Shown here piece by piece: positions 11,200 to 64,000 of a stretch of 64,000 bases of DNA (within the stretch, counting starts at the first letter, position 1; each line of letters begins with the position of its first letter). The DNA is from Crocodylus rhombifer (taxonomy: Eukaryota; Chordata; Crocodylia; Crocodylidae), in NCBI GenBank assembly GCA_038503035.1, contig JAVSML010000960.1:62001-126000 (forward strand). The letters are read 5' to 3'. Under the pieces are notes generated by a model. It was given only the letters and a program-made list of their open reading frames with translations, was not told the origin of the DNA and made no database searches. The position numbers and the translations under genes were made by a program.

Positions 11200-13803
11200 G
11201 GGATTTGGGAGCGGAGCTAAAATGTCTGGGGGCACAGGTGGTCTTCTAATCGATCCTCCCAGTCTCGGGCTATGGGCTGAGCAGGGAGAGGAGGATCCAC
11301 GTAGTCAACCAAAGAGTGTGGTGCTGGTGTCATAGGGAAGGCTTTGGCTTCCATGACCACAGCCCGCCCTTTGGCGAGAGAGGCAGCGAGCTGCTGGGAA
11401 GAGATGGCTTCCATCTCTCTCCCTTGGGGAGGAGGCTCTTCTCAGCCAGACTGGCTGACCTACTCCACCGGGCTATAAACCAAGCCCGTTGGGGGGCAGG
11501 GGAACTACTGCCACTGCTGGCCCGCTGAGCAACCCTTGCAAAGCCAGCGGGCCAAGGCACGTAAGGGAGCCCACCCTTGCCTCAGACCTGGTACAATCTG
11601 CGCGCAAGGCAAGAGCCCCCAAGGGGACACTTGCCTGCCTGTACACAAATGCCAGGAGCTTGGGGAATAAGCAGCAGGAGCTCATCCTCCTGCTCAACGC
11701 AAATCATTATGATGTCATTGGGATAATGGAGACCTGGTGGGACTCCACCCATGACTGGACCTCGGGTACAGACATCTATACCCTGTACAGGAGGGATTAT
11801 GTAGATAAAAGGGTGTAGATCTCTCTGTTAAGGAAAGCTACATGTCCCTGCAAGCTGATATTGGTGATCAGGGTGGATGACTGGAGACCCTCTGGGTTAA
11901 AATCTGTGGGGAATACGGCACAGGGGACACAATGATGGGAGTCTACTACAGACCTCCCACCCAAAGTCCTGAGCTTGACCATGAGTTCGCCCGGGAACTG
12001 GCTGAGGCTGCATGCTCCAGGACCATGGTTGTCATGGGTGACTTTAATTACCCGGATATCTCATGGGAGGATCACTCAGCCAAATCTGAGTGGTCACAAA
12101 GCTTCCTCTTGTGTGTGGATGACCTCTACCTGACTCAAGAAGTCTATGGGCCAATGAGAGGTAAAGCGCTGCTCGACCTGGTACGGGCTACAGGGGGTGA
12201 CCTAATCGGCGACCTAGTGATTGATGGGAAGCTGGGTGACAGTGTCCACGAGCTGATCACCTTCACTATGCACCGTAAAGCTGGCAAGTCAGTCAGCAAC
12301 ACTGAAGTCCTTGACTTCAGGAAAGCTGACTTTGACAAGCTCAGGAGGCTTGTCAGTCAGGCCCTAAGAGACCAGGACCCCAGGGAGAGGGGAGTTCAAG
12401 AAGAATGGTTGCTCCTCAAGGGAGTGATCCTCAATGCACAAGGTAAATCTATTCCATCTTGGAGGAAAGGCAACAAGAGGGCACAGCAGCCCCCCTGGCT
12501 CTCCAGGAATCTAGCAGACATCCTGAGGCTAAAAAGAAAAGCCTACAAAGGATGGAGGATGGGATTCACCTCCAAGGAGGATTATTCTGCACTGGTCCAG
12601 TCCTGCAGGCAGCAAACCAGGAAAGCCAAGGCTCCAACTGAACTCCAGCTAGCTTTGAGCATCAAGGACAATAAAAAGTCCTTTTTCAGATATGTGGGGA
12701 GACGGAGGAAAAGCAAGGGAAACATTGGACCTCTGCTGAACCAGATGGGGCAACTGACAACTGAAGCCCAGGAAAAAGCCAACCTATTAAATGGGTACTT
12801 TGTGTCCGTCTTTCATCAGTCTCATGGGACACCAATGCCCGCTACGGGACAGGGAGGTCCGGGTGAGGGAGATCCCCTGTCCTCCGTTAATGTTGACCTC
12901 GTGAAGGAACATCTTGAGAAGCTGGATACCTTCAAGGCAGCTGACCCTGACAATCTACACCCCAGGGTACTCAAAGAGCTGGCAAGCATCATGGCCCAGC
13001 CCCTGGCACGGATCTTTAAAAACTCCTGACACTCTGGTGTAGTGCCGGAAGACTGGAAGAAGGCCAATGTGGTGCCTACTTTCAAGAAAGGGAGGAAAGT
13101 GGATCCGGCTAACTATAGGCCCATCAGCCTGACTTCTATCCCGGGGAAGATCTTAGAAAAGTTTATTAAAGAGGCCATCCTTAATGGACTGGCCAAGGCC
13201 AACATCCTAAGGGATAGCCAGCACGGGTTTGTTGCGGGTAGCTCTTGCTTGACCAATCTCATTTCTTTCTACGACCAGGTGACCTATCACCTGGACAAGG
13301 GAGAAGAGATTGATGTCATATATTTTGATTTAAAAAAAACCTTCAATCTGATATCCCATGATCACCTCTTGGCAAAACTGGCCAATTGTGGCCTTGGGTC
13401 CACCATGATCCACTAGCTGCGAAATTGGCTCTGTGGTCAGACCCAGAGGGTAGTAATTGATGGAATTCTCTCATCATGGTGTCCTGTGACCAGTGGGGTC
13501 CCCCAAGGCTCTGTCCTTGGACCCATTTTGTTCAACATCTTCATTAATGATAGATTGGAGTCACAAGTGGACTGGCCAAGTTCGCCCATGCCACCAAACT
13601 TTGGGGCAAAGCATCCACACCAGAAGACAGGCGGGTGATCCAGGCTGACCTGGACAGGCTCGGCAAATGGGCAGACGAGAACCTGATGGTGTTTAACACC
13701 AAAAAATGCAAGGTTCTCCACCTTGGGAAGAAAAACCTGCAGCATCCTTATAGGCTTGGCAGTACTACACTGGCTAGCACTACGGAAGAAAGAGATTTGG
13801 GGG
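11200..13803 (+). mobile_element. CR1 LINE, near full length, 5' portion up to LTR insertion
   Basis: One CR1 copy interrupted at 13804 by an LTR and resuming at 14778; both halves together are about 3.3 kb. The left portion holds a GC-rich 5' part (11213-11600) and most of ORF2. The right boundary is exact: CR1 sequence 'gagatttggggg' at 13792-13803 continues as 'gggggtcatcattgacc' at 14778. The left boundary is approximate. Confidence 0.9.
11600..13803 (+). pseudogene. CR1 ORF2 (endonuclease plus reverse transcriptase), disrupted
   Basis: Endonuclease motifs appear in order: LYTNARSLGNKQQEL (11637-11683), VIGIMETWWD (11716-11745), YYRPPTQSPEL (11943-11975) and VVMGDFNYPDISWE (12028-12069). 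A linker follows, then reverse transcriptase: MPEDWKKANVVPTFKKG, NYRPISLTSIPGKILEK, QHGFVAGSSCLTNL, and motif A as YFDLKKTFNLISH at 13320-13358. It is broken by a stop at 11816, a frameshift before 11932, and stops at 13027 and 13414. Motif C, normally FADD, reads FAHA (13581-13592), so the catalytic Asp pair is lost. The protein would normally nick target DNA and reverse-transcribe CR1 RNA. This copy cannot. Confidence 0.9.
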
Positions 13804-14777
13804 TGTAACAGGAGTGCTGCTTTCGGAGCCCTGCTGGGAATGCGGTGCTGGCCTCCTGTAGTGGGCTGACTGCCCGCCTAATCTCGCTTGCCACGTCTTG
13901 ATCTTGCTCATAATTGATGAAGGATTTAAAGCAGCGGGAAGCTGCCCAATCTTGTGCGCCCCGATGACAGGGGGCGCCGTCTGCGGCTCCTTTTCTGCCC
14001 CTACACCGCAGCCCAAGCCTCGCAGATGGTGCTGGTATGCCCTCGCTAGGGCCATAATATGAAGTCCCGGCCCTTTGCTTGCCTTCGGGGTTTCTCGAAG
14101 CCCCTTCTCACTCTCGGGGCCCCTCCCTGCCCCCTCACTCTGCTCCTCACCGCTCCTCACCGCCAGGGCTCTCTGCTGCCCCCCCTAACTCAGGGCTGGG
14201 CCAGCGTGCCCCCCCGAACAAAGCTGTGCCCTCTTTGGCACCATTCACTGTGCCCTCTGGGCGCGAGGAACCCCCAGATTACTGGGGAGCTCCCATGAGG
14301 CCTCCTCGCACCCCTACAGCCTCACCCGGTCCTCCGGTGTAACCATAAGCAAACACAGAAATTAGCCCGCTGGCTACAACATAACCCAAAAGCCTACTGG
14401 CTTGTAACCTCAAGCTCATAAACCCCGCACCGCTCCACGTGAGCTTTACCTGACCTCCGTCAGAGTGCCTTTGCCCCTGCATCATTGCAGCCCGTCCGGG
14501 TGGTCAGGCTCTGGCCATGGCCCCGGGCTGCTCAGCTCGCCCACAGAGCTCCTGCTCCTGTGGCTGCCGGAGGGGAACTGCCCTCCTGGCCTTCTGCCTG
14601 GGCTTAAGAAGGGCTAAGCTCCGCCCCTTCCTGGCTCCAGGCTTCCCCGGTCGCCCTAGCAACCCGCACGGGCACAGTCTTAGAGACTGGCAGTCGTGCT
14701 TCCCCTTTTCCGCCACTAGGGGCCTCTCCGGAGCCTTTTCTCCTCTCAGTTGCAGGGCACCTGAGAGCCCTGCGACA
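13804..14777. mobile_element. Solo LTR, 974 bp, with 5 bp target duplication
   Basis: Inserted inside the CR1. It begins TGTAACAGGAG and ends CCTGCGACA (TGT...ACA), and is flanked by ggggg on both sides (13799-13803 and 14778-14782). The interrupted CR1 sequence joins perfectly when it is removed, which fixes the ends. No internal retroviral genes are present, so it is a solo LTR left by recombination. A 5 bp duplication fits several endogenous retrovirus or Gypsy groups. The orientation and family are not determined, and the open frames inside (14079-14342 and 14517-14792) are composition-driven. Confidence 0.88.
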
Positions 14778-15452
14778 GGGGGTCATCATTGACCACAAGA
14801 TGAACATGAGCCTGCAATGCGATGCTGCGGCTAGTAAAGCGACCAAAACGCTGGCTTGCATCCAGAGATACTTCTCAAGCAAATCCCGGGACATCATTCT
14901 CCCCTTGTACTCGGCCTTGGTGAGGTCGCAGCTGGAGTACTGCGTCCAGTTTTGGGACCCACAATTCAAAAAGGATGTGGAGAAACTTGAGAGAGTCCAG
15001 AGAAGAGCCACACGTATGATCAGAGGTCAGGAAAACAGACCTTACGATGACAGGCTGAGAGCCATGGGGCTCTTTAGCCTGGAAAAGCACAGGCTCAGGG
15101 GTGATCTGATGGCCACCTATAAGTTTATCAGGGATGAGCACCAGGATCTGGGGGAACATTTGTTCACGAGAGTGCCCCAAGAGATGACAAGGTCAAACAG
15201 TCATAAATTACTGTGAGATCATTTCAGGCTGGACATAAGGAAGAATTTCTTTACTGTCTGAGCCCCCAAGGTCTGGAACAGCCTGCCATCGGAGGTGGTT
15301 CAAGCACGTATATTGAACACCTTCAAGAGTATATTGGATGCTTATCTTGCTGGGATCTTATGACCCCAGCTGACTTCCTGCTCTTTGAGCGTGGGGCTGG
15401 ACTCGATGATCTTCCGAGGTCCCTTCCAGCCCTAATGTCTATGAAATCTGTG
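14778..15452 (+). mobile_element. CR1 LINE, 3' portion after the LTR insertion
   Basis: Continues ORF2 with the C-terminal CR1 segment: MNMSLQCDAAASKATKTLAC, then RDIILPLYSALVRSQLEYCV, then [17 protein letters not shown] and RLRAMGLFSLEKHRLRGDL, ending at the stop at 15214-15216. The 3' untranslated part follows (gctgggatcttatgaccccag, ggggctggactcgatgatctt). The end at about 15440-15452 is the tgtctatgaaatctgtgaaa tail typical of crocodilian and turtle CR1. Confidence 0.92.
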
Positions 15453-15455
15453 AAA

Positions 15456-35690: not shown

Positions 35691-36507
35691 GTTACAGTTC
35701 AGGTTCAGAAATTTATGCTTAGAAAGAGAGAAGAGAAAAGAGAGAGAGAGCTGGGATCTTACCAGTCCAAGGCACTCGGGTTGCAAAGCTGACAGGTTAA
35801 AGTTCTCAGCACGATCATTGAAGGGAGATGATCTGCCTCCTTCAGCCTCTCCAGAAGAAAGTGGGTGGTGCCAGTACACACACTGCTGCTTCTTTTACGG
35901 ATTTTTATACCCTCAGTTCAGCTTCTTTCAATCATTCTCAATAGCGTAAATCAAATTGTCTTTTCTATTGACAAGGGGTTATCTGATTGGAACATCTCAG
36001 GAAACTGATTGATACTCAGGAAACACACACTTAGGAGCCAGCTTGACATTCCTATGGATAGCAGATATACTGATGGGACATCTCCTGGTGTCTTCAGAAA
36101 CAATAGATAGCTTGTAGCATCAGGGTCTTGGATTTTTACTTGCTGTGAACAAGCCTCAGCTTAGCATGACTTTTCTAGATCTTACTATAGTCTTTTAACA
36201 GACTTAAGGCAATTATTGGAGTGTTCATAACCTGTTGTGGAGAGGACTTCCACCAGTCGTCTGTGGAAGAGTATGACAACACTCGTGGACAGGGCTCCAA
36301 CGGGCTGGACGCTGTGATGAACCCTGTACCATTGTTCAGAAGTTGTCCATACTCCCTTCTAACTCGGTCTATTGCCTCAGCATTCCCTAACCCAGCAACC
36401 AAGTTGTAGCCAATTAAGTTTACATAGGCCTCCCATGGTGGGACCGGGGAATGTACGGCCTGAGATGCCTAGTAAACTTACTTCTGCTTAGAGGTGGGGG
36501 GGGGGGG
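35691..36507. other. Unassigned; includes an unexplained minus-strand open frame
   Basis: An open minus-strand stretch at 36175-36402 reads MVAGLGNAEAIDRVRREYGQ and continues to 76 residues without a recognised domain. Its composition is more protein-like than that of most shadows here, so it may be a fragment of a retroelement or other coding repeat. I cannot name it. The rest shows nothing recognised. Confidence 0.3.
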
Positions 36508-36607
36508 NNNNNNNNNNNNNNNNNNNNNNNNNNNNNNNNNNNNNNNNNNNNNNNNNNNNNNNNNNNNNNNNNNNNNNNNNNNNNNNNNNNNNNNNNNNNN
36601 NNNNNNN
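36508..36607. other. Assembly gap, 100 N
   Basis: Exactly 100 N, the usual placeholder for a gap of unknown size. Poly-G flanks it: 11-12 G before (36496-36507) and about 17 G after (36609-36625). The true sequence is probably a long G-rich simple repeat that failed to assemble. Confidence 0.97.
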
Positions 36608-37347
36608 AGGGGGGGGGGGGGGGGGAGAGGGAGGAGAGGGGAGAGGGGGAAGTCCTTTGTAAATCCAGATTAGAACTGGTCTGATAAATGCTGAGCTGGG
36701 TGTGGGGGTTGATGAGCATTTGGAGCACAGATTCCCCGTCATGCAGTGCTCCCCTGCTTCGCTGATCCCAGAATTCACTGCCGTCTCTGCTTCAGGTTTT
36801 CTGTTCTCCATCTCTCATGTAAATGAATGGTCATCTGTTCCCATCTCAGATGCAAATGAGACCTAGGGCAGTTGTTTCACTTTTGTCACCCTTATCTGGA
36901 GGGTTTTAGGTGTGTCTCTCACTGCATTTTAATCAGGTTCTGTTTAGGTAGAGAGGGGGAATTCTTTGTGAGTCAGACAGTCTGTGTCCTGTGTCAGAGT
37001 TCCCCAAGAACATGGAGCTGAGAGGTAACAAAGATGCTGTTTAAAGGTGTGTTTTTGGAATACTTGTGCTAAAAACTTGCAGCAGTTTCCAAAAAAGCAA
37101 AATGCAAATTACTATAGACAAGTTTATTTCAAAATCAGTATTTTTAAATTTGTCTCTTCTGTGTGCTCAGGGAAAGCAGGGTCTAATACTAAGGGGAGCT
37201 GCAGGGGGAGGACTTCAGGGTGGGGGCAGAGGGCAAGGGATATACCCCTGGTATATCAATGGGAGGGGTCAAATTCAAGACAAACCTCCGGTAATTAGAT
37301 TCCTGTATTTGGGAAATTATGGCAAATGTATACATTTTCCATATAGA
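36608..37347. other. Unassigned sequence after the gap
   Basis: Begins with a poly-G then G/A-rich tract (36609-36650). Nothing else was recognised. Confidence 0.45.
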
Positions 37348-49171: not shown

Positions 49172-50225
49172 CCATAGATTTCATAGACATTAGGGCTGGA
49201 AGGGACCTAACGAGATCATTGGGTCCAGCCCCCTGCCCAAGGGGCAGGAAGTCAGCTGGAGTCAGATGACCCCAGCAAGATAAGCATCCAAACACAACTT
49301 GAATGTGTCCAGAGTAGGCACTTGCACCACTTCTGGGGGGAGTCTGTTTCAAACTCTGTAGACTTGGACAATAAAGAAGTTTTTCCTTATGTCCAGTCTA
49401 AAATGGTCTTCCAGCAGTTTGTGACTGTTGGACCCTAGTCATCCCTAGAGGAGCCGTGGTGAACAGACATTCTCCCAGATCCTGATGTACATCCCTGATG
49501 TACTTAGGGCTGCCACCAAGTCCCCTCTGAGCCAACACTTTTCCAAGATGAAGAGTCCTGTGTCTCCCAGGCTCTCATAAGGCCTGCTCTCTTGACCTCT
49601 GATCATGCACGTGGCTCTCCTGTGAACTCTCTTGAGCTTCTCCACATTCTTTTTAAAGTGCGGGGCCCAGAATTGGATGTAGCACTCCAGCTGCCGTCTC
49701 ACCAAGGCTGAGTAAAGTGGGTGAATGACATTTTGGGTCTTGTTTGAGATGCATCAGTAGATGCAAGCCAGGGTTTTATTTGGTTTGCCGACTGTGGGAT
49801 TGCACTGATGGATCATGTTCATCTTGTGGTCGATCTTGACTCCCAAGTCTCTTTCGGATGTGGTGCTAGTAAGTGAAGCACTGTAGAGCCTATAGGGATG
49901 CTGTGGGTTCTTTCACCCAAGGTGGAGAGCAGCTTGCATTTCTCTATATTGAAGGTCATCAGGTTTTTGTTCGCGCACCCTGCGAGTCTGTCCAAGTCGG
50001 GCTGAATCCTCAGCCTATCCTCTAGTGTAACTGCGCTTCCCCACACTTCGGTGTCATCTGCGAATTTAGCCAGTCTGCCACCCGAATCCAGATTATTAAT
50101 AAATATATTAAAAAGTACTGGTCTGAGTACTGAACCCTGAGGGATGCCACTGGACATCATGCACCATGTTGACTTGGTTTCATGCCCGTAGTTGGTAGCT
50201 ATTGCTACCCAGACCTGAGAGAACT
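49172..50225 (-). pseudogene. CR1 LINE, 3' third of ORF2 and tail
   Basis: The minus-strand frame 49819-50235 reads SGIPQGSVLRPVLFNIFINN, then LAKFADDTEVWGSAVTLEDR, so the RT motif C FADD is intact here. The frame 49445-49705 gives MVRRQLECYIQFWAPHFKKN and RRATCMIRGQESRPYESLGD. The 3' end is at the left (tagatttcatagacattagg at 49176). It is 5'-truncated at about 50225 and broken by frameshifts between the two frames. Confidence 0.92.
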
Positions 50226-50235
50226 GCAAGACCAC

Positions 50236-50785
50236 GGGAGGTTATTCCCTCACTGTCCCTTCCATTACCAGCCACGCTGTTCCTTCCTCCCCTCCTCCAA
50301 TTATTAGCCATACTGAACACCCACAACCCCCAAACCTCCCATGTATTTTTGGTCACCTTGTTACCCCCCTCTCTCATTGCTCCAGATTAGCCATGGTAAC
50401 TGTCTTCTCGTACTGGAAATCTCTCATAGCCTTACAAATAGAAGTGCGTTTGCACAAAGCCATGGGCCCTGCTTGCCCCCCCCCCCCACACACACATTTT
50501 CTGACTGCTGAAGGTACACATAATGGGGGGTAGGTCCCGGACTGGGGTCTCTCTGCAGTTTTGAAAAACAGACAGCTAAAACTGCAGCCTGTCCATCCAG
50601 TAAGTTTTTTCCCTTGGAACTATGTTTTTCAAATCGCCTGGGAATGGTAGTAGGCTGTAACTTAAACATGATGGCATGCAGACAAGGGGAAATTTCTTGG
50701 TGTTTTACTGACAGCAGAGAATATACAATACGAGCATTCTGGCTTCAGCAGGGAGACTTTGTAGGATATGTGCAAGGGGGCTTCA
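50236..50785. other. Unassigned, with a C-run
   Basis: A C-run lies at 50477-50487. Nothing else was recognised. Confidence 0.4.
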
Positions 50786-57927: not shown

Positions 57928-58826
57928 GATTTCATAGACATTAGGACTGGAAAGGACCTTGGAAGATCATCTAGTCCAGCCCCTGGCCCGAAGGGCAGGA
58001 AGTCAGCTGGGGTCATAGGATCCCAGCAAGATAAGCATCCAATTTGCTCTTGAAGGTGTTCAGTCTAGGTGTTTGAACCACCTCAGATGATAGGCTATTC
58101 CAGACCTTGGGGGCTCAGACAGTAAATGTCCAGCCTGAAACAGTTTTGCAGTAGTTTATAACTGTTCAACCTCGTCATCCCTTGGGGCGCTCTGGTGAAC
58201 AAACGTTCCCCCAGATCCTAGTGGTCACCCCGATAAACTTATAGGTGGCCATTAGATCACCCCAAGCCTGCGCTTTTCCAAGCTAAAAAGCCCCATGGCC
58301 CTCAGCCTGTTGTTGTAATGTCTGTTTTCCTGACCTCCAATTATGCGCGTGGCTCTTCTCTGGACTCTCAAGTTTCTCCACATCCTTTTTGAATTGTGGG
58401 TCCCAAAACAATGCGGTACTCCAGCTGTGGCCTCACCAAGGCTGATGATTATAAAGGGAGAATGACGTCCCGGGATTTGCTTGAGAAGCATCTCTGGATG
58501 CAAGCCAGAGTTTTGGTCACTTTATTAGCCGCAGCATCGCATTGCAGGCTCACGTTCATTTTGTGGTCAATGATGACCCCCAAGTCTCTTTCTTCTGTAG
58601 TGCTAGCCAGCGTGGCATTGTTGAGCCTATAAGGATGCTGCAGGTTTGTCCTCCAAAGGTGGAGAACCTTGCATTTTTTCGTGTTAAACACCATGAGGTT
58701 CTCGTCTGCCCATTTGCTGAGCTTGTCCAGGTCAGCCTGGATCACTCTCCTGTCCTCAGGTGTGGATGCTTTGCCTCAGAGTTTGGTGTCATCGGCCAAC
58801 TTTGCCAGTCCGCTTCTGACTCCAAT
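57928..58826 (-). pseudogene. CR1 LINE, 3' part of ORF2, cut by the LTR retrotransposon
   Basis: The minus-strand frame 58449-58745 reads MIQADLDKLSKWADENLMVF, then NTKKCKVLHLWRTNLQHPYR and MNVSLQCDAAANKVTKTLAC. The frame 58252-58503 continues with RVQRRATRIIGGQENRHY and RAMGLFSLEKRRLG. The 3' end is at the left (catagatttcatagacatta at 57931). Homology stops abruptly after 'gactccaat' at 58826, where related copies continue 'ctatcattaatg'. That is the insertion point of the element starting at 58827. Confidence 0.92.
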
Positions 58827-58975
58827 GTTGTGAGGGGGCCAAGGCCCCAGGGGGTGAGGGTCGGGCGAGGAACACCAGAGTTCCGCCTAACTTCCGGGGC
58901 CCGACCCGGAAGTTTGGCCGGGGGCTTAGCGCTTCCTGGAACTCGGACCGGGCCGGACCGGGACCGGCCTAGGAG

Positions 58976-58984
58976 AATAAAAGG
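58976..58984 (+). promoter_or_regulatory. TATA-like / poly(A)-signal-like AATAAAAGG in the LTR
   Basis: The only AT-rich motif in an otherwise GC-rich LTR, 150 bases from its start. It could position the transcription start or act as the AATAAA signal. If it is the promoter, U3 is short and R-U5 unusually long. Confidence 0.4.
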
Positions 58985-59033
58985 AGCCCACCTACCCCAA
59001 GCAGGAGAAGACTGAGGCTCCAGCCGGAGCCTG

Positions 59034-59240
59034 CACCGGGAGCTGCGGAGCCGGGAGCCGGCGGCAGCGAAGCCAGGAGCCGCGGAGCCGGGAGCCACGC
59101 GGCAGGAGCCGGCGGCAGCGAAGCTGGGAGCTGTGGAGCCGGGAGCTGAGGAGCCGGGAGCCACGCGGCAGGAGCCGGCGGCAGCGAAGCCAGGAGCCGC
59201 GGAGCAGGGAGCCACGCGGCAGGAGCCGGCGGCGGCAGCG
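59034..59240 (+). repeat. GC-rich minisatellite inside the LTR
   Basis: The block gccacgcggcaggagccggc recurs at 59094, 59160 and 59211 (steps of 66 and 51, both multiples of 3), separated by shorter 'ggagccgggagctg' units. Because steps keep the frame, long open frames appear on both strands (59133-59522 plus; 58742-59509 minus), made of Ala/Pro/Gly/Glu-rich repeats. Confidence 0.8.
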
Positions 59241-59884
59241 CGGGGAGCTGCGGAGCCCAGGACCGCACCGCAGGAGCCAGCGGGGCCGGGAGCTGTGGAG
59301 CCAGAGGCGGTAGCGACTCTAGACGACGAACTGGTAACAAGGGGGCTGGCAGCAGCCGTGCCGGAGGAGACCGGAACGGGAGGTTCTGACGGAGGGACCC
59401 TTCTCCGGCGGCTGCGGGCAGTTTGGCCGCGGAAGAAGACCCGCGGGCAGGGAGGTAAGCCTCGCAACCCCCCTGGGTCTCGAGAGACAGTCAATAGGGG
59501 TAAAGACACCCCGGACCCATAGGAGCTAGCTGCACCTGGATAGACCAGGTGCCGTAAGGACTCCTGAAGAGGGTCCGGCAGTGCGAGGGCGGTACCCCAC
59601 TGCAGGACTAGGACACGGACAAGGGAGCCCCTGACGGAGGCTAACCCCGGAGGACCGGGCGAGGGTGTAGGGGAGGAGGAGCCCTCAGGACCCCTGGACC
59701 TTGGAGAAGAGGTACCCTATCCGGACCGCCAGCTTCCCCGTATGGGTGAACCCCCATATTACATCAAGTCGTGGCAGGCGAGATCGGCGGAAGCAGGAAC
59801 GGCCCGTCGCGTACCCCTCCTCTCCAGGAGCCGTCCGGGGATAGGGGGACTCACGGCAGGTGACGCACCCCATCCCCTCACAAC

Positions 59885-59902
59885 TGGTGCATTGGCCGGG
59901 AA
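59885..59902 (+). promoter_or_regulatory. Primer-binding site, complementary to tRNA-Gly(GCC)
   Basis: TGGTGCATTGGCCGGGAA is the exact reverse complement of the last 18 bases (with CCA) of vertebrate tRNA-Gly(GCC), as I know that tRNA. It begins at the first base after the LTR. This is where the tRNA would prime minus-strand DNA synthesis. Confidence 0.85.
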
Positions 59903-59940
59903 CTCCAACCCGAGCCTGACGCCAAGATCACCAGGGAACA

Positions 59941-62400
59941 ATGGAACTCCCCACGGGCACCGATATGGCGCAACAGACGCTGCACCTAATAGCCCAGCTG
60001 CTACAGCAGCATCAACAGACTGCCTTAAGGCAGGTGAACTTGCAGGAGCATTTGCTCCAACAACAACAGGCTAGGGGAGGCCTGTATAGCGGGGAAATGA
60101 ACGTCCCCCGAATGAACAAGGAGGACGATGTAGAGGCCTTCTTAGAGACTTCTGAGCGGGCGGCCCTGGCTGCGGGAGTAGATAAAACGAAGTGGGCCAG
60201 CAGACTGGGAGTCTTGTTGATCGGCCCCGCGCAGGCGGCATACCGAGCCTTGACGCGGGCCGAGGCTGGGGACTATGACCGAGTAAAGGCTGAGATCTTG
60301 CAGCGCTTAGAGATCACCACGGAGAAGCACAGGCAGGCCTTCCGAGGGGTCAAGGCCAAGGGGGAGAGGACCCCCAAGATGTTATGGCACAGTCTCAAGG
60401 ATGAGATGACGAAGTGGCTGAGGCCAGCCATCGCCACAAAGGAAGAAATCTGCGACCAGGTGCTGTTAGAGCGGTTCCTGGCGGACTTGGACGAAGACAC
60501 CCAACACTGGGTAAGATGTCACGGCCCCACAACCTCCCTGCAGGCGCTGCAGCTAGCCGAACAGTATGCGGCGGCACAGGCGGGGCGACGTTCGAGCCGA
60601 GGGAAGCCGAGGCCGGAAGGCTCACCCCGAAAAGGGAAGGGAGGTAAGAGCGAGAAGGTCCCGGAGAGCAGTGTCATTTGTTGTTTCTGGTGTGGTGGGA
60701 AAGGACATCTTGCTAGGTCCTGCCCGACCAATGCTGAGTACCCCGCTAGCAAAGGGGCCCCACTCCCAAGGGGGGACAGTAGAGAGCGGGAGTCCACCCG
60801 GGAGGAGCCGATGGAGTGCGGGGTCGGCGGCAGGGAAGATTCCCCTCCTAGACCCTTACCCCGAGTTAAGACCTGGGTAGGACAACGGCCCCTCATGGCC
60901 ATAGTAGATACGGGGTGCACACAGACACTGGTCCGCCCATCGCTGGTCGAATGGAGGCGAGCACCTCGGTGTGCGGGAATCCACCTGGTTTGCCTGCACA
61001 ACAAAAGAGCTTACTTCGAGCGGCGAATCCTCGAGGTCCGGCTCCAGGGTGTCTCTAGGCGCTTGCCCGTGGGATTGAGTGAGGACATCCTCCACCCTAT
61101 GATTGTGGGGAGAGACTGGCCGGAGATTTACGAAGTACTGGCCACGCTCCGGCCACGAAAGGAATTAACGGAGGGCTTAGCTGGGGAAGAGACAGAGCAG
61201 CCCTGGCTGGGCGAGCTGGAAGGCCTAGCAAGCGGCTACCAGTTCCGTGAGGCCCAGGAGGAGGATGCAGAACTGCGACCCTTCCGCGAGGAAGCCCTCA
61301 AACCCCACTGGCAGCCAGTAAGCCCCACTGCGGATCGGGGACAGGGCCCCCGGGTCGAGCTGAGGCAGGGCTTACTGTACCGTATTAAACCCGATCCCCA
61401 GACAGGGAGGGAGGTGGAACAACTCTTAATTCCCCGCAGATATCGGACACCCCTATTACGGTTAGCCCACGGGAACCCGATGGGGGGACACTTGGGGAAG
61501 GGTAAGACAGAGGCCCGATTAACACACTGGTGCTTCTGGCCCCACTTGTATGAGGACGTCGAGAAGTTTTGCAAGGGGTGTCGGGACTGCCAGCTAGTGA
61601 GCCCCCACAGGCCCCCACGCGCTCCCCTTCAGTTGATGCCAATTATACAGGACCCCTTCGCCAGGGTCGCTTTGAATGTGGTGGGGCCTTTACCGCGTAG
61701 TACCGCGGGATACCGGTTCCTCCTGGTTCTCATAGATTACGCCACCCGGTTCCTGGAGGCTGTCCCCTTACGGGCGGTGACGGGCTCCAAGGTGGCTGAG
61801 GAGCTCATGAAATGGGTGTCCCGGTTTGGGATCCCGAGGGAAATAGTAACGGACCAGGGAACAAACTTTATGTCCGCAGTGATGGCAGCAATGTGCAGGG
61901 TGCTGCATGTCACCCATCTGAGAATGACTGTGTACCACCCCCAAACTAATGGACTTGTGGAGCGCTTCAATATGACATTGAAGGGGATGCTCCGTCGGTG
62001 CGCCCAGGAAGATCCTGCAAGGTGGGATCTATTGGTACCCCCTTTACTATTTGCGGTGCGGGATGCCCCGCAGGCCTCCATGGGATATTCCCCATTTAGG
62101 TTGGTTTTCGGGCACCAACCCCGAAGCTTACTGGACATAGTGAGGGAGAGCTGGGAGACCAGTGCGCGAGGGGGCCGCCAGGTGGCCGAGTACGCCCAGC
62201 AGATACAAGAACGACTCCACAAGGCTCAGCGGGCAGCCCAGGACAACCTCACCCAAGTTCAGAGGCAACAGAAGAACAGGTATGACCAAGGGACCCGGGA
62301 AAGGGAGTTGCAGCCTGGCCAAAAGGTGCTGGTTATGTTGCCCAGCTCCCACAGTAAATTTGAGGCAAGATGGCAAGGGCCAGCACGGGTAATAAGATGA
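59941..62400 (+). CDS. Gag - protease - integrase polyprotein segment of Gmr1-like element
   Basis: 819 codons from the first ATG after the primer-binding site. Capsid-like region at about 60-212, of which 128-212 is SCAN-like (key: WLRPAIATKEEI at 159-170, LLERFL at 175-180, W190, VR). Basic linker 214-240, then a CX2CX4HX4C zinc knuckle at C248, C251, H256 and C261. Protease: VDTGCTQTLV with active Asp 323, and IVGRDW at 388-393. Integrase: HHCC zinc site H510, H517, C544, C547; catalytic core with position 579 Asn where the first Asp is expected, then D638 and E674 (DD35E spacing); GPY/F-like WQGPARV at 811-817. A stop at 62398-62400 ends the frame, but the same frame continues into reverse transcriptase, so this stop is a later mutation. 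With Asn 579 the integrase should be inactive. Confidence 0.92.
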   Translation: MELPTGTDMAQQTLHLIAQLLQQHQQTALRQVNLQEHLLQQQQARGGLYSGEMNVPRMNKEDDVEAFLETSERAALAAGVDKTKWASRLGVLLIGPAQAAYRALTRAEAGDYDRVKAEILQRLEITTEKHRQAFRGVKAKGERTPKMLWHSLKDEMTKWLRPAIATKEEICDQVLLERFLADLDEDTQHWVRCHGPTTSLQALQLAEQYAAAQAGRRSSRGKPRPEGSPRKGKGGKSEKVPESSVICCFWCGGKGHLARSCPTNAEYPASKGAPLPRGDSRERESTREEPMECGVGGREDSPPRPLPRVKTWVGQRPLMAIVDTGCTQTLVRPSLVEWRRAPRCAGIHLVCLHNKRAYFERRILEVRLQGVSRRLPVGLSEDILHPMIVGRDWPEIYEVLATLRPRKELTEGLAGEETEQPWLGELEGLASGYQFREAQEEDAELRPFREEALKPHWQPVSPTADRGQGPRVELRQGLLYRIKPDPQTGREVEQLLIPRRYRTPLLRLAHGNPMGGHLGKGKTEARLTHWCFWPHLYEDVEKFCKGCRDCQLVSPHRPPRAPLQLMPIIQDPFARVALNVVGPLPRSTAGYRFLLVLIDYATRFLEAVPLRAVTGSKVAEELMKWVSRFGIPREIVTDQGTNFMSAVMAAMCRVLHVTHLRMTVYHPQTNGLVERFNMTLKGMLRRCAQEDPARWDLLVPPLLFAVRDAPQASMGYSPFRLVFGHQPRSLLDIVRESWETSARGGRQVAEYAQQIQERLHKAQRAAQDNLTQVQRQQKNRYDQGTRERELQPGQKVLVMLPSSHSKFEARWQGPARVIR

Positions 62401-64000
62401 GTCGGCCCAGTAAATTATGAAGTCCAGAGGGAGGGCTGACAGAGGACGTCCCAGATCCTGCACATTAATTTGCTGAAGGAGTGGCAGGAGCCACAGGGGC
62501 TCCTTCTAGAAATGGATCGGGAGTCAGTGGATGGAGATTAGCAAGGGCTAGAGGCGGGGCCCAAAACCTTAGAGGAGGGACTCCCCGGGGAAGGAGCGTC
62601 CCTCTCGCCGCACCAAAAGAAACAACTGCAGCGTTTAAACACGGAGTTCAGGGATGTGTTTACGGAAACTCCCGGGAAGGCTAGAGGCGTCGAACATGCG
62701 ATCCTGACGCCGCGAGGTCAGGTTGCCAGAGAGAAGTGGCGGCGGATCCGCTTCTTCCGACGCCAACCAATTAGAGAAGAACTAAACCGTATGCTGGCCC
62801 AAGGCATTATCACGCCTTCCCGCAGTCCCTGGCGGAGGCCGTTGGTGGCCGTAACTAAGCCGGACGGCAGTTTGCGGCTGTGCGTCGACTTTAGAAAGGT
62901 GAATGCCATCACACAGTTCGACGCCTTCCCTATGCCCCAGGTGAACGAACTAGTGGAGAGCATCGGGCAGGCTAACTTCATCTCCACCCTGGATCTGGCA
63001 AAGGGATACTGGCAGATCCCCTTGCGGAAGGAGGATAAGCCCAAGACCGCGTTTGGAACACCATGGGCCTGTACGAATTCAAGAGGATGCTGTTTGGGTT
63101 GAATGGGGCTGCAGCCACCTTCCAAAGGCTAATTGACTGGGTGCTGGTGCCTCACCAAGAATACGCCGCCGCATATATCGACGACATTGTGGTCTACACC
63201 CAGACGTGGGAGCAGCACCTTCGGGCCCTGAGGAAGGTCCTGCAGGAGTTACGGGGTAAAGGCCTAACGGCCAACCCGAAGAAATGTGCCCTGGGAAGAT
63301 CAGAGACTAAATACCTCGGCTTCCAGGTAGGCAAGGGGCAGGTAAGGCCCTTAAGGGACAAGGCGGCGGCCCTCCGGGACTATGAGGCCCCAGTGACTAA
63401 GAAACAGATGCGGGCCTTTCTGGGGTTGGCCAGCTACTATCGGCGGTTCATTCCCCGGTTTGCAGAACTGGCTAACCCCTGGTAGACACAACCAAGGGGC
63501 GGGAGCCTCCCCGAGTCAACTGGACCCCGGAAAGGCGTAAGGCTTTCGAAGAGCTCAGGCGAGCATTGTGTCAGGGGGTCGTGCTACATACTCCGGACTT
63601 TAACGTTCCCTTTACTCTGCAGACCGATGCTTCGGCGTATGCCCTGGGAGCTGTCCTCTCACAGGAGGTGGAAGGAGCGGAGCGTCCCGTGGCGTTTGCC
63701 AGCTGGAAACTAAACGAGCATGAGCAAAGGTACTCCACGATCGAGAGGGAGTGCCTCGCTATACGGTGGGGCATAGACTATTTCAGATATTATTTATTGG
63801 GCCGGGAGTTCCGGCTAGTGACAGACCACGCCCCTTTACGGTGGCTCAACTCTGCCAAGACAGAGAATGCGAGGATTATGCGATGGGCCCTGGCGCTACA
63901 ACCCTACCAGTTCCAAATTGGGTATAAGCCGGGGCGCAGTAATACGGTAGCAGACTTTTTGTCTCGGTGCGGAGGGGCAGAGACACCTCCTGAGCCCTCG
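62401..64000 (+). pseudogene. Reverse transcriptase - RNase H of Gmr1-like element, broken, partial
   Basis: Directly continues the previous frame, with further stops at 62437 and 62539, then is open to about 63060. RT motifs: LRLCVDFRKVNAITQFDAFP (62875-62934), FISTLDLAKGYWQIPL (catalytic Asp, 62977-63024). A one-base frameshift near 63061 shifts to MGLYEFKRMLFGLNGAAATF, then AAYIDDIVVYTQTW with YIDD intact (63168-63209), and KYLGF. A second one-base shift near 63480 leads to RNase H: LQTDASAYALGAVLSQ (63619-63665), ERECLAIRWGI, TDHAPLRWL and SNTVADFLSR (63939-63967); the Asp/Glu/Asp/Asp residues are present. The window ends just after this. Protein fold and polymerase residues are otherwise preserved, which suggests decay after a functional past. 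Confidence 0.92.

Follow-up and report, generated by a model that had tools for sequence, protein, structure and literature searches.

The 64,000-nucleotide stretch of Crocodylus rhombifer DNA analysed here (contig JAVSML010000960.1, positions 62,001 to 126,000 of the forward strand; hereafter the window) very probably carries a copy of a Gmr1-like Ty3/Gypsy (Metaviridae) long terminal repeat (LTR) retrotransposon, with a two-domain capsid whose C-terminal domain belongs to the SCAN family, SCAN being itself derived from such capsids. The place of gag residues 128-212 in this family is best explained by the probable descent of SCAN, as zinc-finger genes now carry it, from capsids of such elements. 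The first-pass annotation of this DNA had seen in the same region the ancestral SCAN domain, an interpretation that is partly supported, being correct in kind and overstated for this copy.

The SCAN-family domain of the capsid

The open frame encoding gag extends from 59920 to 62400 (826 codons). Since its first ATG is at 59941, residues 128-212, the capsid C-terminal domain, correspond to 60322-60576, as first annotated. Gag through the end of the capsid occupies 59941-60636, and SCAN is the sole Pfam family matched by this 232-residue piece at an expect value (E) of 1 or less. Residues 128-212 match positions 2-84 of the 90 in the Pfam SCAN profile (PF02023) with an E of 1.5e-19, and their score of 70 bits exceeds the cut-off, which is 27. 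The profile search proposed by the annotation came out in its favour. A sequence search of the PDB gave five distinct matches at E≤0.001, all of them SCAN domains, from 3.2e-9 (ZNF24) to 6.2e-4, and three further matches, to unrelated proteins, at E 1.1-1.3. No SCAN match at E≤1 was obtained with one reversed and three shuffled versions of the sequence. The likeness would also have lost its meaning had unrelated Gypsy capsids scored equally; the single such capsid used as a control (n=1), a sushi-type Gypsy capsid from the same genome (L080), has no SCAN match, and matches DUF4939 (6e-13) and Retrotrans_gag (1.2e-6) instead. The genome search for Retrotrans_gag had given two matches, all 30 of 30 candidates being scored.

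The core motifs follow one another in the order and with the spacing of SCAN, as had been claimed: WLRPAIATKEEI at residues 159-170 (60415-60450), LLERFL at residues 175-180 (60463-60480), and W190-V-R-C-H-G-P196, in agreement with W-V-x-x-x-x-P. Only the tail had been misread: it runs A202-L-Q-L-A-E-Q208, that is A-x-x-L-A-E-Q and not A-x-L-A-E-Q. The domain therefore shares sequence family, motif order and spacing with the SCAN domains of ZNF24, PEG3 and ZNF174. It differs from them in its surroundings, since it is preceded by a capsid N-terminal part (residues about 57-127, 60109-60321), homologous to the N-terminal half of the host ESCAN exons described below, and since the frame runs on into a CCHC knuckle, a protease and an integrase, and not into C2H2 fingers. 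The region is rich in helices, and its Foldseek and VIA matches are weak. Structures were predicted for the capsid, without an alignment, and for the domain by itself, the latter model being of too low quality for a structural search; the agreement with the SCAN fold is weak and not decisive.

The element and its insertion

The coding features of the element all lie on the plus strand. Downstream of the capsid come a CCHC zinc knuckle at 60679-60726 (zf-CCHC, E 0.0021, 18.5 bits, just below the curated cut-off of 20.8), an aspartic protease at 60868-61116 (Asp_protease_2, E 0.0028, 18.7 bits, below the cut-off of 24.3), in which an active-site-like motif, VDTGCTQ, can be read directly, and an integrase at 61429-61941, made of an H2C2 zinc-binding domain and then the core (Integrase_H2C2, 1.7e-16; rve, 3.1e-8). 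Gag, protease and integrase share one open frame, which ends with the stop at 62398-62400 and is followed by more same-frame stops at 62437, 62539 and 63100. The reverse transcriptase (62854-63329) is broken and lies in two frames (RVT_1, 2.9e-10 and 4e-18 for the two pieces), and the RNase H (63596-63907; RT_RNaseH, 3.1e-40) lies in a third. Because of the stops after the integrase, the split reverse transcriptase and the frame of RNase H, this copy is not autonomous.

The gene order was established from separate Pfam matches for each piece, starting at 60868, 61429, 62854 and 63596, and reads CCHC, protease, integrase, reverse transcriptase, RNase H, with the integrase upstream of the reverse transcriptase. 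The order protease-integrase-reverse transcriptase-RNase H (PR-IN-RT-RH) is a hallmark of Gmr1. Together with the LTRs and a 5-bp target-site duplication, it makes the element Gmr1-like, and the annotation was right that one sequence supplies both the Gmr1 gene order and a SCAN-like capsid, the latter above the Pfam cut-off. A protein database searched with gag gave 0 of 4475 candidates at E≤0.01; a scan of IMG/VR yielded two stretches, neither of them confirmed, and the phage records searched were without match.

The 5' LTR (TGTGAG...CTCACA, 1054 bp) occupies 58829-59882 of the plus strand. The 3' LTR, of 1276 bp including 10 N, is found at C816:126091-127366 (equivalent to 64091-65366); it starts 91 bases past the end of the window, with no room for env ahead of it. 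It is 222 bp longer than the 5' LTR because its array of a GC-rich minisatellite, at about 59036-59283 in the 5' LTR, is longer. The target-site duplication, AATGT, stands at 58824-58828, before the 5' LTR, and again directly after the 3' LTR (L009, 2368-2372). With the minisatellite left out, a comparison of the two LTRs over 814 sites shows 17 transitions and not a single transversion (Kimura two-parameter distance 0.0213), and these differences are unevenly spread, with 9 in the 187 sites of the head and 8 in the 627 sites of the tail. The insertion is fairly young, and the copy is degraded. A primer binding site, TGGTGCATTGGCCGGGAA, is located at 59885-59902 of the plus strand, two bases past the 5' LTR; its complement, TTCCCGGCCAATGCACCA, presumably resembles the 3' end of tRNA-Gly(GCC).

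The element inserted into a copy of a long interspersed nuclear element (LINE), presumably CR1-like: its flanks match, at 86-89%, the abutting positions 13554 and 13551 of a second LINE copy in the window (12551-15453), which encodes an endonuclease and RVT_1. A further LINE reverse-transcriptase fragment lies at 49822-50241 on the minus strand (RVT_1, 4.8e-7), and the window sequence is broken up by undetermined bases at 36420-36791.

Related capsids and ESCAN exons in the same genome

When the 2.2-Gb assembly was searched for SCAN, the best 150 of 1521 candidates comprised 71 matches of at least 85 bits and a further 79 of 72.4-84.5 bits. The window copy, with its 70 bits, falls under every match listed and outside the list. 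Contigs such as C12314 and C12315 form pairs, and some of the listed matches may be duplicates. The capsid N-terminal part has at least 150 scored matches in the genome, of 1235 candidates. A comparison by place with these N-terminal matches, which took in 53 rows judged to share contigs, found the capsid N-terminal part directly upstream of at least 52 of the 79 lower-scoring SCAN matches; the other 27 had none among the matches listed. The figure of 52 element copies is a lower bound, because the comparison was between the best matches of each search; host SCAN exons (C7018, C8877) account for part of the 27. The most divergent element capsid folded in, L069, matches SCAN at 74.2 bits.

In three exons of this genome, a capsid N-terminal part and SCAN occupy one open frame: C4749:164878-165339 (SCAN, 135.1 bits), C4749:194891-195358 (129.4 bits) and C4973:24610-25083 (133.6 bits; N-terminal match at C4973:24889). 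The same contiguous arrangement defines ESCAN in PMC3406341, and is that of the element. A search with the N-terminal half of one of these exons returned three places at 68-99% identity, followed by places at 47% or less (150 scored of 831). One ESCAN exon also matches Retrotrans_gag weakly (0.025). Since the exons retain the N-terminal part and one of them gives this match, the genes hold the whole capsid. They differ from the element in their gene-like settings: no integrase, reverse-transcriptase piece or RNase H was found at E≤1e-3 in six loci flanking the ESCAN exons. Seven C2H2 fingers lie about 7 kb downstream of exon C4749:164878-165339, on the same strand (C4749:172198-172764), and four fingers, perhaps of another gene, about 23 kb downstream of exon C4973:24610-25083; for exon C4749:194891-195358, the reading for fingers covered the next 2.6 kb. 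Element and domesticated capsid thus coexist in one genome.

No ESCAN N-terminal part was detected at E≤0.1 in 19 further SCAN loci read with their flanks. A tblastn search with the N-terminal part of the window copy at E≤0.1 missed one ESCAN exon (L005), which an ESCAN query recovered. Two SCAN-only loci, L002 and L021, have a run of short repeats rich in alanine and leucine (for example LGPEKAAV) in frame where the capsid N-terminal part would be. Contig C8877 carries a SCAN-KRAB-finger gene (L081, 2109-7676, minus strand; KRAB 6.2e-24, nine fingers) with a very divergent SCAN. In the best tree this gene (L075) grouped with the elements (87/87), on a long branch; a second domestication was considered and rejected, its support being insufficient. 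Together with the LINEs, SCAN-KRAB-finger genes of this kind would be in keeping with an amniote host, as the annotation had it.

Trees were built with 28 of the 38 element loci fetched, the capsids of the other ten not being covered by a single frame; they are unrooted and have no outgroup. The whole-capsid tree holds 32 rows: the window copy, 28 element loci and the three ESCAN exons. The ESCAN exons form one group (100/100), which joins between an old, degraded element clade of 8 rows (84/72) and the remaining 21 element rows (87/85). The window copy is nested inside one element clade, closest to L059 (93% identity). This position, the youth of the insertion and the fact that all 150 SCAN matches listed in the genome outscore it leave the term ancestral unsupported for this copy. 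In the SCAN-part tree of 55 rows (29 element, 3 ESCAN, 20 SCAN-only and 3 human SCAN domains), a branch supported at 99/94 parts the 29 element rows from all others. The best tree splits ESCAN, and a single ESCAN clade is not rejected by the approximately unbiased (AU) test (p 0.14).

The phylogeny with host SCAN genes that the annotation had called for therefore separates elements from host SCAN, and goes no further: in AU tests that are descriptive, their groups having been named after inspection of the trees, host SCAN with the window clade (p 0.343) and with the old clade (p 0.431) are both not rejected. The window copy shares 37-42% identity with the three ESCAN exons in the N-terminal part and 33-35% in the SCAN part; the sequences nearest to ESCAN come from the old clade for the N-terminal half, with 53% at most, and from another clade for the SCAN half, with 40% at most. 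Since these identities point both ways and neither placement is rejected, the donor lineage cannot be named.

Origin of the domain and its significance

Could the resemblance to SCAN be a chance or convergent likeness of helical segments? The region is indeed rich in helices, and its Foldseek and VIA matches are weak; a match of 1.5e-19 over almost the whole profile, clean scrambled controls and a homology that extends into the N-terminal part of the ESCAN exons nevertheless refute this idea at the level of sequence statistics, and its probability is negligible. Granted common descent, the similarity could have passed from gene to element, the retrotransposon having acquired a host ESCAN exon as its capsid. 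The topology alone is compatible with such a capture, the trees being unrooted. We hold it to be extremely unlikely, since the domain spans deep element clades, as L069 illustrates, and occupies the position in gag at which a capsid is required. In the same sense, more than 50% of the Gmr elements of frogs were reported in 2014 to match SCAN (PMC4131045), and the origin of ESCAN is placed near the tetrapod root (PMC3406341).

It is also very unlikely that the window copy, or its own subfamily, is a direct relative of the SCAN donor. The AU test, as seen above, leaves room for host SCAN with the window clade, but the copy ranks only 71st of 150 scored against the ESCAN N-terminal part (43%, against 47% for the best element), its identity to ESCAN is below that of the old clade in the N-terminal half and of another clade in the SCAN half, and its insertion is young. 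The reading that we retain is that of a Gmr1-like element with a capsid of the kind from which SCAN arose, the transfer having probably gone from element to gene. In the element, the C-terminal domain of the capsid most likely dimerises, as in retroviral capsids, which would let Gag assemble into the particle that houses reverse transcription within the cell. In zinc-finger genes, SCAN pairs transcription factors. One could further imagine that ESCAN was kept for co-assembly with, and restriction of, incoming Gmr1 particles, and that paralogues with SCAN alone shed their N-terminal half, perhaps repeatedly, to become plain dimerisation modules; we consider this scenario unlikely.

Emerson and Thomas reportedly proposed in 2011, according to papers that cite them, that SCAN originated from a Gmr1-like capsid, and described ESCAN. 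In these later papers, SCAN is derived from the C-terminal part of a Gmr1-like capsid (PMC4592553, PMC3424704, PMC3406341), ESCAN is described for Anolis (PMC3406341), and the capsid profiles of PMC11011659 failed to detect SCAN proteins. The Gmr1-like elements of these sources, such as frog Gmr (PMC4131045), have the same PR-IN-RT-RH order, LTRs, a SCAN in the Gag capsid and no room for env; the window copy, broken in pol and with a minisatellite in its LTR, does not differ from them in principle. That Gmr1-like elements combine this gene order with a SCAN-like capsid is already described (PMC4592553, PMC3406341, PMC3424704, PMC4131045), which makes the finding a sound re-discovery. The singularity implied by the annotation is not supported either, since at least 150 listed SCAN matches score above this copy.

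The known origin story of SCAN is unchanged by these data, which add a detail, three full-capsid exons, and no new principle. They amount to an independent confirmation, within a single genome, of the published domestication, with young capsids, full-length ESCAN and truncated SCAN genes found together. The published speculation that SCAN proteins meet retroelement capsids thereby becomes testable with the proteins of one host.
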